Positions 1,028 to 10,142 of a stretch of 10,142 nt of DNA are shown here, in pieces. The notes beneath the pieces were generated by a model. The model made no database searches and was not told the origin of the DNA. It saw only the letters and a list, made by a program, of their open reading frames with translations. How positions within the stretch are numbered: the stretch's first letter is position 1; every line of letters starts with the position of its first letter. This stretch comes from Candidatus Nomurabacteria bacterium (GTDB lineage: Bacteria > Patescibacteriota > Saccharimonadia > Saccharimonadales > Saccharimonadaceae): NCBI GenBank assembly GCA_031262565.1, contig JAISHL010000086.1, forward strand, positions 1 to 10,142. The letters are read 5' to 3'. The translations under genes were made by a program, and so were the position numbers.

Positions 1028-1057
1028 TTGACTCAACCACAACCTTTATGCTAAACT
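1028..1057 (+). promoter_or_regulatory. Promoter of the surface-protein gene
   Basis: TTGACT (1028-1033) and TAAACT (1052-1057) are separated by 18 nt. A TG sits one base before the -10 (1049-1050), giving an extended -10. Transcription should start near 1064, leaving a leader of about 44 nt. The site is in the only gap between lepB and the surface gene. Confidence 0.6.
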
Positions 1058-1091: not shown

Positions 1092-1096
1092 GGAGG
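1092..1096 (+). promoter_or_regulatory. Shine-Dalgarno site for the surface-protein gene
   Basis: GGAGG lies 11 nt before the ATG at 1108 and fixes that start, which places the GA tract inside the coding region. This is one of the few strong Shine-Dalgarno sites in the window. Confidence 0.7.
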
Positions 1097-1107
1097 GATA
1101 TAAGGCG

Positions 1108-3585
1108 ATGAGATTCGGAGTTTTTCGAGAGAGAGAGAGAGAGAGAGTAAAGAAGCGCAACTCTCTCACATTAGGTAAGCATAGAAATAAATCAAAAAAC
1201 ACACTCTTCAAGCTACCGAGAATAATAGGCGGCAGCTTAATTGTTGTTTTAGCCGCCATAGGTTTTATCAGTATAGCTATCGGCAATACCCCAAAACTCA
1301 ACTCCGACCTCTCCTACACCCCCTCCCAATCCTCTGATTTTAATGTAGCTCTTGCCGTCGGCGCTGGCGTTAACGCCAGTATTGCTATGACCAATACAGA
1401 CAGCGAAACAGAAGGAGATAGCACAAGTTGTGATCTCACTCCAACATATCTTACATATAACGGAACAATAATAACCTGCAAAGCTACCGTTACGGTCAGC
1501 ACTACGTCGGGCTATGGCTATGCTGTTACGCTAGCTAGTAGTAATACAGAAACCAGACTGGTTGGCACGGGTGATGCAGTTGGTTCATATATAGATGCTA
1601 ATACAGGCACATATGTAACCCCAAGTTCGCTAGGTAATGGTAAATGGGGATATGCATTGCCAAACAGTCAGGCTACAATAAATAATGTAGCAAGTAGTGG
1701 TTTTAGCTCCTCGTATATAGTCGCCGAGAAAGACACCAGCAGTAACACGACTACTAATCCAAACTATGACCCAGACTTCGTATCGGCTAAATATGCTCCC
1801 ATAGTTAGCTCAGCCAGTCCAACTATGGTCAGGCGAACTAGGGTTATGGCTAATAGTGATACTTTCGACATTTATTTTGCCACTCGTCTTAATAGTAGTC
1901 AGAGTATGGGCAATTATGGTGGTAGCGTTACTATTAAGATAGATGCCAATCAGCCACCAATAGCTACATCTACATGGGTTAAATCCGTCACTGCGCTCCA
2001 AGGTCCATCCGCATCAAGCATCACCATAGATAAAGACGTTAACATGATTCCAATCGTTAATCAATTCAGCGACGGCTCATCCACAGCTGGTAATGAATGG
2101 GCTAATTATGATGATACTAAATGGGCAAATGCCGTAACTTTGAAAAATGATATAGATAAATATGCAACAGACGGCTCTACTACTGCTCCGACTTTGACTC
2201 CGCTAGAATATTTCAGAGATTACGCGTCGGTTGGATCTACTATTCCCGAAGAAGACATATTGGGTTACTGGGTTTATGTGCCGAGGTATGCTTACGAAGT
2301 GCAACGCCGTGATGCAGTAGATATATTTGTTCCTGCGAATAACTTTAATATTAGATTTGAAAAATCCACAACTGATAAAAAGTTCCCAGTCGCTACTTGC
2401 TCAATCCTTGGCACAGGCAACGCCATCGTTTCCGCCAGTGGAGCTACCAACAAAGACTACTCTGGTTACGCTACCCCAGCAAATCCAAATGACGACTGTA
2501 ACACTACCGCCGCTAAAACCTACCCAACCTCCGCTCCATACAACCAATCCACTTGGGCGACACATCCAGCGTTTACTTTTGGCTCAACTGATCTTAACGG
2601 CATCTGGATAGCTAAGTTTGAAACCACAGGTTCAGTAACTGCTCCAACCGTTAAACCTAACCTCAAATCTCAAACAGCCCAAGTCATAGGTGTCCAATAT
2701 GACATAGCTGCAAGTATAGGTGTTCTAGATCCTAATAAAACGGGTGGAAATAATACAACCGTAAGCCAAAACTCACATAGTCTTAATACTTTCAAATCCC
2801 GCATGATTAAAAACAGCGACTGGGGTGCGGCAGCTTATCTTTCCGCCAGTAAATATGGGGCGGGAGTTAATAATGTCCAGATAAATTCCGCATCCACTAG
2901 CATGCGCGATGGTAATGGAACTGCTTCCGCTAGTGGTATCACTGGTTGCGGTCCGAGCAACAATGGAAATACAGCTACTTATGCTGATGCTGATATCACA
3001 GGGACTACTAATTATGACCAAGTAGCTACCACATGCTCAAAAGGCAATGCTCAGCGTAACTACTATGGCACACTAGGACAACTAGCTTCTACTACCAATA
3101 ATGTTTATGGCATCTACGATATGAGCGGTGGCGCATGGGACTATGTAATGAGTAACCGCACAACCTCTGGCAGTCAAACCACAACATCTGGCACTACATA
3201 CCTAGCTACCCCAATAACCAACTCTGCTTACTACGACGCATATAAAACCACAGCCGCTCTTGGTGACACTAGCCAAAACCGTTTCGGAACACAGCCAACA
3301 GGCTCAAATACAAACGAACACCTCTACAACAACGACGTCTGTGTCTTTGAAACCTGTGGCGGTCAAGCCCTACACGAAACCAAGACCATCCAGACCGTTT
3401 CGGAGAACAATCAGTCGTGGGGCTCGGATGGTGCAATATTCGTGAGTTCGGGTAGTCCGTGGTTCGATCGTGGCGGTAGCTCAAACCGCGGCAACGATAC
3501 TGGCGTATTCATGTCAGCTGGATACACGGGTAACACCACGACGGACAACCTCATCAGTTTCCGCGCCTCCCTGAGCAAGTTTTAG
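1108..3585 (+). CDS. Large membrane-anchored surface protein with C-terminal FGE/C-type-lectin-like domain, probably phase-variable
   Basis: An 825-residue protein. Residues 1-38 are strongly basic and include an Arg-Glu repeat encoded by a (GA)10G tract. A single hydrophobic helix at about 39-58 (IIGGSLIVVLAAIGFISIAI) is an uncleaved anchor or signal peptide. Residues 60-290 are Ser/Thr/Asn-rich and predicted beta (for example GNGKWGYALPN, YGGSVTIKI), a texture I associate with CPR/TM7 exported proteins. From about 384 the sequence resembles a family found in Firmicutes and CPR surface proteins: GYWVYVPRYAYEV, IWIAKFETTG (about 498), RMIKNSDWGAAAYLSASKYG (about 564), ITGCG, VYGIYDMSGGAWDYVMSN (about 665) and the C-terminal SPWFDRGGSS...SFRASL (from about 783). 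That last part has the layout of the formylglycine-generating-enzyme/C-type lectin fold. Paired cysteines suggest disulfides. I infer adhesion or host-cell contact, with no proof of ligand. The start is set by GGAGG at 1092. Its neighbour lepB is on the same strand. Confidence 0.85.
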   Translation: MRFGVFRERERERVKKRNSLTLGKHRNKSKNTLFKLPRIIGGSLIVVLAAIGFISIAIGNTPKLNSDLSYTPSQSSDFNVALAVGAGVNASIAMTNTDSETEGDSTSCDLTPTYLTYNGTIITCKATVTVSTTSGYGYAVTLASSNTETRLVGTGDAVGSYIDANTGTYVTPSSLGNGKWGYALPNSQATINNVASSGFSSSYIVAEKDTSSNTTTNPNYDPDFVSAKYAPIVSSASPTMVRRTRVMANSDTFDIYFATRLNSSQSMGNYGGSVTIKIDANQPPIATSTWVKSVTALQGPSASSITIDKDVNMIPIVNQFSDGSSTAGNEWANYDDTKWANAVTLKNDIDKYATDGSTTAPTLTPLEYFRDYASVGSTIPEEDILGYWVYVPRYAYEVQRRDAVDIFVPANNFNIRFEKSTTDKKFPVATCSILGTGNAIVSASGATNKDYSGYATPANPNDDCNTTAAKTYPTSAPYNQSTWATHPAFTFGSTDLNGIWIAKFETTGSVTAPTVKPNLKSQTAQVIGVQYDIAASIGVLDPNKTGGNNTTVSQNSHSLNTFKSRMIKNSDWGAAAYLSASKYGAGVNNVQINSASTSMRDGNGTASASGITGCGPSNNGNTATYADADITGTTNYDQVATTCSKGNAQRNYYGTLGQLASTTNNVYGIYDMSGGAWDYVMSNRTTSGSQTTTSGTTYLATPITNSAYYDAYKTTAALGDTSQNRFGTQPTGSNTNEHLYNNDVCVFETCGGQALHETKTIQTVSENNQSWGSDGAIFVSSGSPWFDRGGSSNRGNDTGVFMSAGYTGNTTTDNLISFRASLSKF
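1127..1147 (+). repeat. (GA)10G dinucleotide tract inside the 5' coding region
   Basis: Ten GA units plus a G, read in frame as alternating Arg and Glu just after codon 6. Loss of one unit moves the frame to a TAA at 1176-1178. Gain of one unit brings the TAA at 1148-1150 into frame immediately after the tract. Tracts of this length are prone to slipped-strand mispairing, so the tract should act as an on/off switch for the surface protein. The sequence given is in the ON state. Confidence 0.9.
1141..1167 (+). other. Hairpin between the GA tract and a CTCTCTC block
   Basis: GAGAGAG at the end of the tract (1141-1147) is perfectly complementary to CTCTCTC at 1161-1167 across a 13-nt loop. Because the left arm is repetitive, the pairing can slide along the tract in steps of 2 nt. 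It may affect translation early in the mRNA or promote replication slippage. The pairing is seen in the sequence; the role is inference. Confidence 0.5.
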
Positions 3586-3593
3586 AGCACAGT

Positions 3594-3662
3594 GTCATCC
3601 TGAACTTGTTTCAGGATCTATAATGCATAATAATGGAGATTCCGAAACAAGTTCGGAATGAC
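3594..3662. repeat. Inverted pair of a short dispersed palindromic repeat
   Basis: Two 26-bp copies (3594-3619 and, inverted, 3637-3662) flank a 17-nt spacer. Each copy is itself a hairpin: a 7-bp stem with loop ACTTGTT. The core of copy one is TCCTGAACTTGTTTCAGGA and that of copy two, read on the minus strand, is TTCCGAACTTGTTTCGGAA. The copies differ at four positions, which form two compensated base pairs within the small hairpin. The whole pair could fold as one long stem, and a T6 run follows at 3670-3675, so it may also end the surface-gene transcript. A third copy is at 6640-6665. Very similar palindromes occur in many bacterial genomes. Confidence 0.85.
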
Positions 3663-3685
3663 AAGTTGGTTTTTTCTGCTACAAT
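3658..3685 (+). promoter_or_regulatory. Promoter of the ABC-F gene, leaderless geometry
   Basis: ATGACA (3658-3663, one mismatch to TTGACA), 16-nt spacer, then TACAAT (3680-3685) preceded by TG-C, an extended -10. Only 7 nt (3686-3692) separate the -10 from the ATG at 3693, so transcription should begin at or next to the start codon. The -35 lies across the end of the palindromic repeat. Confidence 0.65.
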
Positions 3686-5681: not shown

Positions 5682-6299
5682 TTATTTTTTAACAAAGTTA
5701 AAGAAGTGATATACGTTTGTAGTAATAGCACCTACGCTATTAGGTGTATCATAATAATAGCATCGCTCTTCGGCGAACGCCTCTTTAAGTTCGTCTGTAT
5801 TATAATCTTCACATAGCGAATCGCTCTGGACTGATGCAAAATATTTCCATTCGCTATCGTTGCCTATCCTATAAAACATGGCAACTGCGTCATCAAATTC
5901 ACCAGCGCCAGTTCTAATATGCGTCTTTGCGCGCCAAATATCATTACCATTTGAACTCTCATTTGAATAATTAACACTTATAAGATCGCCTAATTTTTTA
6001 TCTGGAAAACTCGTCTTCAATTCACTCAACACATTTTTCAAATATTCAGCGCTATTGATAGTGGCAGTATCTTCGCCAGATTCGCTAGAAGAGGAGTCGT
6101 CGCTCGATTCCGCAGTCTTATCTTTTATTGCATTCAATTCCTCTTGTATCTCGTCATTTTTCAAACCCTGATCATAACTTTGTTTGGCGAATATTCCAGT
6201 AAATGTCAGCGACGTCACCAATAATACCGCAAAAATAATGCTTAATATTTTCCAAACATCAGTCTTCTTGGTGTTGACGTTTTTCTCTGGTTGTTCCAT
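5682..6299 (-). CDS. Membrane-anchored extracytoplasmic protein, function unknown
   Basis: A 205-residue protein. The short basic N-terminus is cytoplasmic, one hydrophobic helix lies at about 16-37 (WKILSIIFAVLLVTSLTFTGIF), a short coiled-coil-like helix at 44-63 (KNDEIQEELNAIKDK), and an acidic Ser-rich linker at 64-80. A mixed alpha/beta domain from about 82 to 205 follows, with aromatic-rich strands (MFYRIGNDSEWKYFASVQ) and two cysteines (163 and 180) that could pair outside the cell. I do not recognise the domain. The start is fixed by AGGAG 6 nt upstream. The gene has its own promoter at 6477-6485, a leader of about 170 nt with a candidate attenuator, and a terminator downstream, so it is monocistronic. 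Confidence 0.85.
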   Translation of the reverse strand: MEQPEKNVNTKKTDVWKILSIIFAVLLVTSLTFTGIFAKQSYDQGLKNDEIQEELNAIKDKTAESSDDSSSSESGEDTATINSAEYLKNVLSELKTSFPDKKLGDLISVNYSNESSNGNDIWRAKTHIRTGAGEFDDAVAMFYRIGNDSEWKYFASVQSDSLCEDYNTDELKEAFAEERCYYYDTPNSVGAITTNVYHFFNFVKK

Positions 6300-6639: not shown

Positions 6640-6665
6640 ATCATTCTAAACTTGTTTCAGAATCT
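6640..6665 (+). repeat. Third, degenerate copy of the palindromic repeat
   Basis: Core TTCTAAACTTGTTTCAGAA, 26 bp aligned to copy one with differences at positions 1, 6, 9 and 22. Positions 6 and 22 form a compensated pair (C-G in copy one, T-A here), while position 9 breaks one pair, so this copy looks partly decayed. It stands alone without an inverted partner. Confidence 0.8.
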
Positions 6666-7195
6666 ATAAAACATGACGAAAAAACATTGATTACAAAAAA
6701 TAGGCAAAAATGGTTTTTACCAAAAATCATTGTAAAAATGTCATGCAAAACACGGGCGAGTTGATCGGGCGAGAATTTAATTTTTTAATAATTAAATCAA
6801 AAATCACTAGACACTTTGAGATGAAGTTGAGACGCAGAAGAGAATTGATTTTTTGCGCGTTAGTTAACGTCGCACAATATATCTTTTACGTCGTTAAAGA
6901 AGACGTAACTGGGGTCGGATCTAGATTTTTCAAATCTAGCAAATCGCCGCGCCAACTGCTAATTTGAACCAAAAAAATAATTCTGTCGCTTTCGGGCAAG
7001 TGCGCCTCTTTCTCATTTATCATAATTCTATTATTAAAATCCAGCCATTTTATAAAACTTAGATTTACTGGGGTCAATCTGTTAGCTGATTAAAGGTCGA
7101 TCATAGTCCGATTCGTAGCCATACTCACAACAATTTGACGTTTTAGAATTTTTATTATTTTATAATATTTTTGACAATAACAATATTTTATTATT

Positions 7196-7375: not shown

Positions 7376-8281
7376 TTTCCAATACGCCTTCCCCATCACG
7401 CGACAATCCACATAGCTAGGTGTGATCTGATTTTGATCCAAATATTTTATCATGGTCGTCATATCGGCAGCCTGCGACGACGGATCGCGATCAATGTGCG
7501 CCATAAACGGATATTCCCTGTCCGCCAGATAGAAATTTACATAGCGAATCGCACCTGCTGGAATCTCAACTCGATTAACACTTTCGCCTTTTTTATCTAA
7601 TTCCGACGACACGCGCCCAACAAATTCCAAAAAATTCGTCGAAGTCATCGCGCCGTCGCTACTGCCAACACCGCTGTTATCTATAATCTGAATACTCGGC
7701 TCGGCAAAAAAGTTCTTCGCAAAAACTATACCGCTCTCATCAACATAATTCGTTTTATCGGCGACAGTAAACATCGCCAGCGGTTTGCGAAATTCAAGAT
7801 TAAGCTGACTATTCATAAGTCCACTTTTAGTGATCTCGGCAGTTTTTATCTCTGGCGCGCCTTGAATCAAAAACCGCACCATATCATCATCGCGACGCGC
7901 AAAATCAAATCGTTCAAGCGGATTTTTTCTGAAATATTCGGCTGCCAACTTTTGATATTTACCCACGTCCGACGAACTCAATTTTGAATCGCTGGAAATT
8001 TTATTGAGCGAACCATTAAACTCCGACAATAACAATAATCCCAACACGCAAATTACCGCCACGATCAACAAAATTCCGCCTAATTTTCGACGGCGCTGGC
8101 GCAAAGTTCGCTCTTTCTGGCGCTCGGTTTTTTGACGTTGCTCATCGTTAAGATTAGTTAAAGTTGTGCCGCGACGATAATTCTGAAAAACCGAATCTGT
8201 CGCCGTAAAATCGCTACGTCGTCGCGTCGGCTCATCTTTTTTCTTTTTTTCGCCACACCCAATCCCACCAAAAACTTTCAC
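7373..8281 (-). CDS. ftsQ: FtsQ/DivIB-like cell-division protein
   Basis: A 302-residue single-pass protein of the divisome, which links early and late division proteins at the septum. The N-terminal 66 residues are cytoplasmic and very basic (NDEQRQKTERQKERTLRQRR). The membrane helix spans about 67-86 (LGGILLIVAVICVLGLLLL). The extracytoplasmic part carries a divergent POTRA-like region and then the FtsQ pattern: APEIKTAEIT, a strand LNLEFRKPLAMF, and NYVDESGIVFAKNF. The last 15 residues, PSYVDCRVMGKAYWK, fit the FtsQ C-terminal strand (usually YVDxRxxGxxYxK). The start is a GTG at 8281 that shares one base with the murG TAG stop. AGGAG (8289-8293 on +) sits 7 nt upstream. The gene follows ftsW and murG in one operon, which supports the call despite low sequence conservation. 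Confidence 0.88.
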   Translation of the reverse strand: MKVFGGIGCGEKKKKDEPTRRRSDFTATDSVFQNYRRGTTLTNLNDEQRQKTERQKERTLRQRRRKLGGILLIVAVICVLGLLLLSEFNGSLNKISSDSKLSSSDVGKYQKLAAEYFRKNPLERFDFARRDDDMVRFLIQGAPEIKTAEITKSGLMNSQLNLEFRKPLAMFTVADKTNYVDESGIVFAKNFFAEPSIQIIDNSGVGSSDGAMTSTNFLEFVGRVSSELDKKGESVNRVEIPAGAIRYVNFYLADREYPFMAHIDRDPSSQAADMTTMIKYLDQNQITPSYVDCRVMGKAYWK

Positions 8282-9465
8282 TATTTTTCTCCTTTCTGCC
8301 TACTTTTTTGCGACTTTTTCGCCACATCAAAAATCATTTCAATAATTTCGTTCAGCGCGTTCGGACGAGCAAATTTTAACAAATTCGCACTGAATTTTTC
8401 GCGCAATTCCGAATCGCCAGCCAGTTTTTTAATCGCATTCAATAAAATCTCTGGCTTCTCGCTAAGATCATCCTGAATAAACATCATCGCCGCATCTGCA
8501 TTTTCATAAACTCGCGCATTTTTCGTCTGATGATCGCCCGACAGATGCGCATTCGGCACAATAATCACAGCCTTGCCAGCCGCCGCAAGTTCCGCCATCG
8601 TCGTCGCGCCAGCTCGTGTCACCACAATATCCGCCGCCGCAATCGCAGGAATATAATCATCAGTCAAAAACTCCACAACGCGAAAATCGGTTTTTTTCAG
8701 ATCTAGCGATTCAATTTTACTTATATCATTTTTGCCCGACATCAACAAAATCTGCATACCATTTTCAACAAGTTTTGGCGCAATTTTTGCCGTTACGCGA
8801 TTTAATCCGCGCGCGCCCTGACCACCGCCAGCCACAAAAATCAGCTTTTTCTCCATATCAAACCCCAGCTGTTTTTTTGCCTGATTCTGCTCCGCGTGAG
8901 AAAACCTATGCAAACCGTCGCGGATCGGCACGCCAACAAACCTAGTCTTGGATTTTGGATAATCTGGGTAATTTTCAACTGGCGAACCCGTCCCGATCGC
9001 CGTGGCAAATTTCGCCAAAATTTTATTCGTTAGTCCAGGTGTCGTATCACTATCATGAATCACTATCGGAATTTTCAAAATATATGCCGCCACGCCGACC
9101 GGTAAACAAACAAATCCGCCCTTCAAAAAAATCACATTCGGTCGCCAAATTATCAACTTTACAAAACTCTGCATCACGCCAAATGCAATCTTAAAAATAT
9201 CAATAAAATTGCGCAGATAAGTTTTGAAAATATGATAACGAATTTTCGTCCACAGCGACAAATTCGCATAACGTCGCCATTTTCCGCTGACAATAATATC
9301 AATTCGCGCCGATCCGCCCATCAATTCGCGCGCACGACCAGAGAATTTTCGATCACACCACACGCGAATGTCGACGTGTTTTTTCGGCTCGCGAACTTTT
9401 TTAACGACCGCTACGATTGGCGTAATATGACCGCCCGACCCGCCGCCCACGCAGAGGATTTTCAT
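8281..9465 (-). CDS. murG: MurG, UDP-GlcNAc:lipid I N-acetylglucosaminyltransferase
   Basis: A 394-residue GT-B enzyme on the inner face of the membrane that adds GlcNAc to lipid I to form lipid II. Visible motifs: the Gly-rich loop GGGSGGHITP (7-16), IVIHDSDTTPGLTNK (134-148), where the family usually has HEQN in place of HDSD, the second Gly-rich loop FVAGGGQGARGLN (210-222), and the UDP-GlcNAc site EFLTDDYIPAIAAADIVVTRAGATTMAE (265-292) followed by DHQTKNA (311-317). I chose ATG 9465 because the Gly loop must lie at the N-terminus; AGGAAGGGGG precedes it. An upstream in-frame ATG at 9570 would add 35 unrelated residues from within ftsW. It overlaps ftsW by 65 bp and ftsQ by 1 bp, so translation is probably coupled. 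The C-terminal tail is Lys-rich (KKSQKSRQKGEK). Confidence 0.97.
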   Translation of the reverse strand: MKILCVGGGSGGHITPIVAVVKKVREPKKHVDIRVWCDRKFSGRARELMGGSARIDIIVSGKWRRYANLSLWTKIRYHIFKTYLRNFIDIFKIAFGVMQSFVKLIIWRPNVIFLKGGFVCLPVGVAAYILKIPIVIHDSDTTPGLTNKILAKFATAIGTGSPVENYPDYPKSKTRFVGVPIRDGLHRFSHAEQNQAKKQLGFDMEKKLIFVAGGGQGARGLNRVTAKIAPKLVENGMQILLMSGKNDISKIESLDLKKTDFRVVEFLTDDYIPAIAAADIVVTRAGATTMAELAAAGKAVIIVPNAHLSGDHQTKNARVYENADAAMMFIQDDLSEKPEILLNAIKKLAGDSELREKFSANLLKFARPNALNEIIEMIFDVAKKSQKSRQKGEK

Positions 9466-10142
9466 GGTCGCCCCCTTCCTGCTCTTTAATTTTTCGATGA
9501 ACCGTATATCGCGACACACCAAAAACCAGCCCGAGTCCCGACATAATAAACAGCATTGATGTGCCGCCAAAGCTCACCAACGGCAACGTGATTCCAGTTA
9601 GCGGAATAATATGCGTCATTGCGCCAATATTCAAAACCACGTGCGCCGCTAACCAACCAAAAACGCCCGCCACAATCAATCGCAAATACGCATTTTCCAA
9701 AAAATCCACCTTGTCAATGATTCGTTTCAACAAAAATGCAATAAGTAAAATCAAAATAATTACCCCGAAAAATCCAAACATTTCACCAATGATTGCAAAA
9801 ATTGAATCGTGTATCGCCATCGGAAGCCAGCCAAAAGCCTGAATTGATTGTCCAAGTCCGCGCCCAAAAAATCCGCCCGACCCAAGCGCAATCGCCGCCT
9901 GTTCTATGTGATAATTTCCCGCTTCACTGCCGTCGCCCAAAAAAGTCGCCATGCGTGCCAAACGGTGTGGCGCAACTAAAATTGACATAACACCCAACGC
10001 CACAATCACCGCCACGATCGCAAATAATTTTCGCCCACTCACCCCTGCAATCACCAGTTGAGATAACACGATCGCGATCAACGCAACGCCAGTTCCCAGA
10101 TCTTTCTGCATGATAACGATAACAAACAACGACAAGAACAAA
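9401..10142 (-). CDS. ftsW: FtsW, SEDS-family peptidoglycan glycosyltransferase (3' part)
   Basis: About 246 C-terminal residues of a polytopic SEDS protein that polymerises lipid II at the septum; the 5' end is beyond the window. Hallmarks seen: QKDLGTGVALIAI (usually QPDLGT), HIEQAAIALGSGGFFGRGLGQS, AIHDSIFAIIGEMFGFFGV with the Asp that is essential in the family (usually TDFIFAVIGEE), several long hydrophobic helices, and the final IPLTGITLPLVSFGGTSM followed by a helix. FtsW rather than RodA is favoured by the adjacent murG and ftsQ. The cytoplasmic tail is basic (HRKIKEQEGG...ANRSGR), and its last 21 residues are encoded over the start of murG. The apparent TTG at 10141 is only the edge of the window, not a start. 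Confidence 0.95.
   Translation of the reverse strand, partial: LFLSLFVIVIMQKDLGTGVALIAIVLSQLVIAGVSGRKLFAIVAVIVALGVMSILVAPHRLARMATFLGDGSEAGNYHIEQAAIALGSGGFFGRGLGQSIQAFGWLPMAIHDSIFAIIGEMFGFFGVIILILLIAFLLKRIIDKVDFLENAYLRLIVAGVFGWLAAHVVLNIGAMTHIIPLTGITLPLVSFGGTSMLFIMSGLGLVFGVSRYTVHRKIKEQEGGDHENPLRGRRVGRSYYANRSGR

Follow-up and report, generated by a model that had tools for sequence, protein, structure and literature searches.

A GA-dinucleotide tract as a proposed on/off switch of a putative surface protein in a candidate phyla radiation genome

The window analysed in this work, a stretch of 10,142 nt (contig JAISHL010000086.1, C77 in an assembly of 587,657 bases, 89 contigs and 70.85% completeness), carries a (GA)10G tract just behind the start codon of an 825-codon open reading frame (ORF). 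The locus raises the question whether this tract is an ordinary part of the coding sequence or a device by which the encoded protein is randomly turned on and off. From the sequence comparisons described below, the tract is very probably a slipped-strand phase-variation switch (a contingency locus), assembled here in the ON state.

The encoded protein of 825 amino acids (aa) gave no match in Pfam, NCBIfam or PHROG, and its alignment gave no sequence match in the PDB. Close homologs are labelled Ca. Saccharibacteria or Ca. Nomurabacteria in the database, distant ones mostly Bacilli or Mollicutes, and homologs of MurG, which is also encoded in the window, carry both labels of the candidate phyla radiation (CPR) where names are given. 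The first-pass annotation had considered the product as a surface protein of a CPR epibiont. The CPR part of this claim is supported by the database labels of related records, which suggest a CPR lineage with no finer placement. The proteins of this family are likely located at the cell surface, where they may bind to host cells or to other targets; an involvement in attachment to the host is deduced from the surface placement and from lectin and pilin relatives.

Reading frames through the GA tract

Tandem Repeats Finder reported the GA tract at positions 1127-1147 with a period of 2, 10.5 copies and 100% match, and the tract starts 19 nt past the ATG of the 825-codon ORF at 1108-3585. The frame was read out with 6-15 GA units. 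Proteins of 823, 825 and 827 aa were obtained with 7, 10 and 13 units, respectively, while 6, 8, 9, 11, 12, 14 and 15 units gave a stub of 12-26 residues, i.e. the intact protein is obtained only if the number of GA units equals 1 modulo 3. The repeat finder and the ORF call bore out the first description of the tract as in frame and 19 nt after the start, the two TAA stops that had been named for the gain and the loss of one GA are correct (Table 1), and the read-out confirmed that one frame in three yields the 825-residue protein. The product had also been called giant: its size of 825 aa is confirmed, and the adjective holds only in a relative sense. Chance was considered as the origin of the tract. 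With a first-order Markov model of the window composition, the tract is expected 3e-11 times per strand in the window and 3.5e-9 times in the 588-kb genome on both strands, and chance was rejected.

The next in-frame ATG, GTG or TTG was found 79 codons past the tract, beyond the hydrophobic segment, so that no other start is evident from which a frameshifted mRNA could yield a membrane-anchored product. According to the proposed mechanism, replication slippage would add or remove GA units, and the tract of the window gene would itself vary in length. Only with unit numbers of 1 modulo 3 would translation from the ATG at 1108 run on into the membrane segment and the large outer domain, and the descendants of one cell would randomly make the full protein (ON) or the stub (OFF), the OFF frame being presumably equivalent to no protein.

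Repeat tracts in paralogs and related genomes

The 825-aa protein has paralogs on six other contigs (Table 1), several of which are cut by contig ends. Two GA tracts of at least 7 units were detected in the genome of the window, both at the 5' end of members of this family, namely the window gene and the gene on C22 (L161). The C22 gene displays two competing ATGs: the one nearest the Shine-Dalgarno sequence leads to a 12-residue stub, and the second one, touching the tract, opens the long ORF, so that its ON/OFF state is ambiguous. Upstream of the C22 gene lies TTGACT-18-TAAAAT; upstream of the window gene one promoter-like pattern was found versus 0.4 expected in shuffled sequences.

Poly-G tracts were also searched in the same genome. 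Thirteen tracts of at least 9 G (nine G9, three G10, one G12) were found versus 0.25 expected, and none of exactly 8. Six of them, ranging from G9 to G12, are located between TTGAC and a -10-like TANNNT (C2, C17, C31, C49, C65 and C75). Those on C2 and C17 both precede paralogs of the window protein, those on C31, C49 and C75 precede ORFs in which a hydrophobic segment was recognised by eye (the ORF on C75 counting just 89 codons), and the one on C65 precedes an ORF counting 481 codons or more. The seven remaining tracts are inside ORFs, including a paralog (C38) and a signal-peptide-like start (second tract of C31). Pfam analysis of the products of 8 of the 13 loci gave a serine hydrolase above the cut-off (C13), NUDIX (C87) and PsbP_2 (C49) below it, and no match for five. 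Scanning for TTGAC-polyG-TANNNT gave 6 matches in this genome versus 0 for the reversed control, and 77 versus 3 in 61 genomes of the order, where at least 7 of the 77 sites repeat a tract already matched. Poly-G tracts of at least 9 are present in 21 of the 61 genomes and missing in 40; they number 50 in G001 (same genus), 52 in G020 and 61 in G028, for genome sizes of 0.7-0.9 Mb. In a comparison for orthologous tracts, no DNA match was obtained between the 13 loci and nine stretches of G001.

Two minor observations concern promoter-type tracts. GA tracts of 14-18 nt in G020 (L156, L157) and G021 (L145, L159) stand shortly after TTGAC and before TATT, in a promoter-spacer-like position. On the minus strand of the window, an ORF of 205 aa with a hydrophobic segment (5682-6299; L260 2562-3194) is 26% identical (1.3e-11) to the stretch behind the poly-G promoter on C75, where the frame stops at codon 90 and the match extends past the stop.

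The proposed switch of the window gene would be one of a set, together with GA after the start (C22), poly-G in the spacer (C2, C17) and poly-G in the coding sequence (C38). As the paralogs have tracts of their own, each cell would display a random subset of this lectin-like family.

Tracts of the GA type were then considered across relatives. (GA)8 occurs in 7 of the 61 genomes of the order, the present one included, and (GA)9 in 47 of the 394 genomes of the family; GA tracts of at least 7 units number 31 in G012 (an interrupted one counting as two) and 22 in G004. The window protein has a strong homolog (E < 1e-40) in 17 of the 394 genomes. (GA)9 was detected in 11 of these 17 versus 36 of the 377 others (Fisher p = 1.6e-7, uncorrected for relatedness). 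The placement of 63 GA/CT tracts from seven genomes was compared with 2,520 positions drawn at random from the same stretches, taking as ORF behind a tract the best of six frames with at least 85 aa. Such an ORF lies directly behind 52 of the 63 tracts versus 72.5% of the random positions, and a long ORF behind the tract was consequently rejected as evidence by itself. For 47 of the 63 tracts, the ORF had a hydrophobic segment at a distance of up to 80 residues, versus 8.4% at random. When at most 60 codons were in addition open upstream, the values were 45 of 63 versus 6.5%, and none of 40 random sets reached 45. The random-position control weakened the ORF argument and strengthened the placement before hydrophobic segments, which left the confidence in a switch unchanged. 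In 40 further stretches from other genera, several tracts are near secreted, membrane or prepilin-like ORFs; other stretches showed no such ORF, cytosolic-looking ORFs, or no tract in the stretch read (L265).

The frames behind the tracts indicate that ON and OFF states coexist across loci. GA-sense tracts followed by an ORF number 31, of which 9 are ON, 15 OFF, 3 ambiguous and 4 without an ATG supported by a Shine-Dalgarno sequence. Out-of-frame stops follow these tracts after a mean of 8.7 codons versus 21 at control positions, with 0 of 5000 draws as low (paralogs not being independent), and 17 of the 31 have a stop within one codon versus 25% in the control. Tract lengths were compared for 103 tracts, two entries being halves of one interrupted tract. 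Length differed in 80 of 85 pairs with homologous flanks (75 within one genome and 5 between genomes; related pairs are not independent). In a pair from G072 with flanks 99.4% identical the tract is 31 versus 27 nt long, in a pair from G012 (97.4%) 30 versus 24 nt, and between G140 and G128 (100%) a CT tract measures 28 versus 24 nt.

The proposal of an on/off switch made in the first-pass annotation is thus supported by paralogs with the same or other tracts, mixed ON and OFF frames in relatives, early out-of-frame stops, the placement before hydrophobic segments and length differences at homologous flanks. None of the 61 genomes had a match above the cut-off to MutS_I, the mismatch-recognition domain of MutS (one match was weak), versus 11 of 14 controls, a result compatible with unstable tracts. 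Loss of mismatch repair as the sole cause of the tracts was rejected, since tract-free genomes are also below the MutS_I cut-off. The same result would favour neutral growth of microsatellites, devoid of any regulatory function, in a genome poor in repair, and so would the wide variation in tract numbers among genomes. This explanation is improbable in view of the 45 tracts standing near an ORF start just before a hydrophobic segment, the finding of the two GA tracts of this genome within a single gene family, the six poly-G tracts in promoter spacers against none for the control pattern, and the early out-of-frame stops. A stable coding repeat, in which the cytoplasmic end of the anchor would require an alternating Arg-Glu tail, would account for a tract that is in frame and provides a charged tail before the hydrophobic segment. 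However, 15 of the 31 GA-sense tracts elsewhere are out of frame, other tracts have the LSLSLS sense, consist of poly-G or lie in promoter spacers and 5' leaders, and the homolog P0004 has no tract. Tracts encode RE or LS depending on their sense, and poly-G encodes G, so that selection for the encoded peptide is improbable; very little credence was given to this explanation.

At repeats of this type, polymerases or ribosomes can in general slip as well. Programmed frameshifting or slippage in transcription would then supply every cell with a fixed mix of full and short products and involve no switching at the DNA level; it is hardly likely, as DNA tract lengths differ between loci and tracts in promoter spacers could not act in this manner. 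An artefact of assembly or sequencing may be suspected in a low-complexity stretch of a fragmented assembly, but 21 nt is short for read-length trouble and the same arrangement is found again in paralogs and other genomes, including that of G015 (a single contig of 1.0 Mb), which makes an artefact extremely improbable.

A slippage switch remains the preferred explanation, and a number of observations weigh against it. The window gene is represented by one assembly, which is 71% complete. Among the 120 homologs listed, no strain allele of the window gene was found, and the nearest one from another genome has 57% identity over 66% of the query. A check had been proposed for tracts at the matching codon across homologs: this is not general, as a filter for N-terminal repeats matched 4 of the 120, query included, and missed one further carrier (P0003). 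P0004 is 41% identical over the whole length, with no tract, and no homolog was found in the same-genus genome G001. Six of the 17 genomes with a strong homolog are without (GA)9, and 11 of the 63 tracts are without an ORF of at least 85 aa. For the 21 CT-sense tracts with an ORF, none is ON, 3 are OFF and 18 have no supported ATG within 75 nt. Finally, (GA)8 is absent from 54 of the 61 genomes though none passes MutS_I, so that missing repair is not sufficient for tracts to arise.

Retroelement diversification of related proteins

Target proteins of diversity-generating retroelements (DGR) are known for a C-type-lectin fold. In G004 and G015, homologs of the 825-aa protein are DGR targets encoded beside an RVT_1 gene. 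As in DGR systems, their terminal variable repeat shows changes specific to adenine relative to a template repeat next to the reverse transcriptase, and substitutions fall on template adenines in 16 of 16 cases in G004 and 23 of 24 in G015. The DGR target of G015 has the sole GA tract found in that genome 43 nt upstream of its ATG. Repeat pairs beside homologs are given in Table 1, and a similar pair stands beside an ORF with YxDD in G200. In the genome of the window (about 71% complete), no second copy of the C-terminal DNA of the window gene and no template repeat were found, and the RVT_1 search revealed no DGR-like reverse transcriptase. The only RVT_1 match, on the 4.1-kb contig C37 (L254 2399-3802), is located beside a restriction-like helicase ORF (by eye) and not by a paralog; this reverse transcriptase is perhaps of the defence type and not DGR-like. 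As a separate observation, a repeat pair in G020 (C6; L257 4821-4954 and 5261-5395) stands by an RVT_1 gene and, read as minus strand, has 18 of 22 substitutions on A of one copy.

Because homologs of the window protein are DGR targets in relatives, such surface proteins can carry two diversifiers. The gene family shows both tract and DGR features, split over relatives. For some ultra-small symbionts it appears moderately likely that diversity has two layers, where slippage would randomly pick the lectin members to be expressed and the DGR would rewrite the binding tip of those proteins. DGRs have been reported in CPR genomes (in part of PMC10221324). A union of DGR and slippage tracts was not found in the literature searched, and the portions of PMC5745447 and PMC3072357 covered treat them apart.

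Both types of change were observed in a block shared by G140 and G128 (L326 3103-5949, G140:C1; L327, G128:C1). Over 11,565 aligned bases, the two genomes differ by 13 substitutions and a single 4-nt indel. The indel lies in the CT tract, which stands 37 nt upstream of the ATG of a pilin-lectin gene. The product of 335 aa has an FGE-sulfatase domain and the N-methylation motif of type IV pilins, and all 13 substitutions fall in codons 300-332 of the gene. A template repeat, identical in both genomes, is located downstream, separated from the gene by a reverse-transcriptase-like ORF (YxDD motif) and a 138-aa ORF. The variable repeat differs from it at template adenines in 12 of 12 positions in G140 and 10 of 11 in G128. 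Hence the fast changes in the middle of the block affect one gene, in its tract and in its variable repeat. The near-identity extends 3.9 kb unchanged on one side; on the other it extends 4.4 kb, and 10 mismatches occur at the outer end. Elsewhere G140 and G128 are 76-82% identical, in three aligned stretches of 1.1-1.9 kb obtained from seven 20-kb pairs. Given such distant genomes, the block of about 20 kb is probably an element which has recently moved. A GTG-started frame leads through the CT tract into the pilin in G140 and not in G128, and the CT tract may act in the 5' leader instead of via this frame.

Known systems and further features of the window

In Helicobacter pylori, the genes sabA, oipA/hopH, hopZ and babB carry CT-dinucleotide repeats in the 5' coding region. 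The window gene resembles these adhesin genes by a dinucleotide tract at the start of a surface protein, one ON frame in three and a multigene family, as well as by promoter and coding tracts side by side; the phase switch of the adhesin SabA also involves a promoter tract (PMC2715451, in part). Phylum and cell envelope are different, and the present protein is of the DGR-target kind in a probable episymbiont. No homology to Hop outer-membrane proteins was found with Pfam and NCBIfam, the similarity being in the working only. The poly-G tract of porA in Neisseria meningitidis sits between -35 and -10. This layout is shared by the six promoter-type poly-G tracts described above, porA having its tract in the promoter (PMC3639595, in part); unlike porA, several such promoters are present per genome here, two of them before paralogs of the window protein. 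Campylobacter jejuni is not known to possess MutSL repair. The poly-G set is genome-wide as in the phasome of this species, for which 29 loci with 7 or more G/C were counted in strain NCTC11168 (part of PMC4965091). It differs by 13 tracts of at least 9 in 588 kb here and 50-61 in the relatives G001, G020 and G028. The hypervariable surface protein with PTD repeats of Gracilibacterium BD1-5 (PMC6851277) is likewise a case of repeat-associated variation in a CPR surface protein; it differs by a 9-mer coding repeat with synonymous variation, and no on/off frame switch is described in the part of that paper considered. In the open-access literature, the term 'phase-variable' was not found together with 'candidate phyla radiation', subscription papers and bioRxiv being mostly outside the scope of this search. 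Slippage itself is known; what is new is its scale in ultra-small genomes, its target and the union with retroelement diversification in kin.

These results bear on how CPR episymbionts recognise and keep their hosts. The 13 (present genome) to 61 (G028) poly-G tracts in reduced genomes, with lectins and pilins behind tracts, suggest random surface variation as a strategy of some of them. It resembles that of host-adapted pathogens, here perhaps directed at bacterial hosts or their phages. The analysis yields a testable list of surface genes, and genes in the OFF phase may be overlooked in annotations of such genomes.

Table 1. Coordinates of features in the window and of repeat pairs in related genomes
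Feature	Position	Strand	Basis or remark
Promoter-like TTGACT-18-TAAACT, TG before second hexamer	1028..1057	+	pattern scan
Shine-Dalgarno-like GGAGGG, 10 nt before ATG	1092..1097	+	sequence
825-aa surface protein (putative), multigene-family member (C2, C17, C22, C38, C45, C57)	1108..3585	+	ORF call, homology
(GA)10G tract, proposed slippage switch	1127..1147	+	encodes RERERER; assembled copy in ON frame
TAA reached on gain of one GA	1148..1150	+	frame read-out
TAA reached on loss of one GA	1176..1178	+	frame read-out
Hydrophobic membrane segment, residues ~42-58	1231..1281	+	hydropathy
C-terminal stretch (residues ~759-822), homologous to DGR template/variable repeats of relatives	3382..3573	+	sequence comparison
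Template/variable repeat pairs beside homologs of the window protein	L255 1020-1198 and 3098-3279; L256 2392-2580 and 3760-3948
Repeat pair beside homolog of the window protein, candidate DGR	L265 1809-1961 and 6696-6848

In the window, nothing was detected with Rfam at gathering scores. The minus strand at 8281-10141 encodes MurG (Pfam PF04101, PF03033) and an FtsW-like ORF named by eye, which are ordinary cell-wall genes. A palindrome-like dispersed element (TCATCCTGAACTTGTTTCAGGATCT and its inverted copy) is located at 3593-3663 and at 6641-6674, the latter site with 85% identity over 34 nt.

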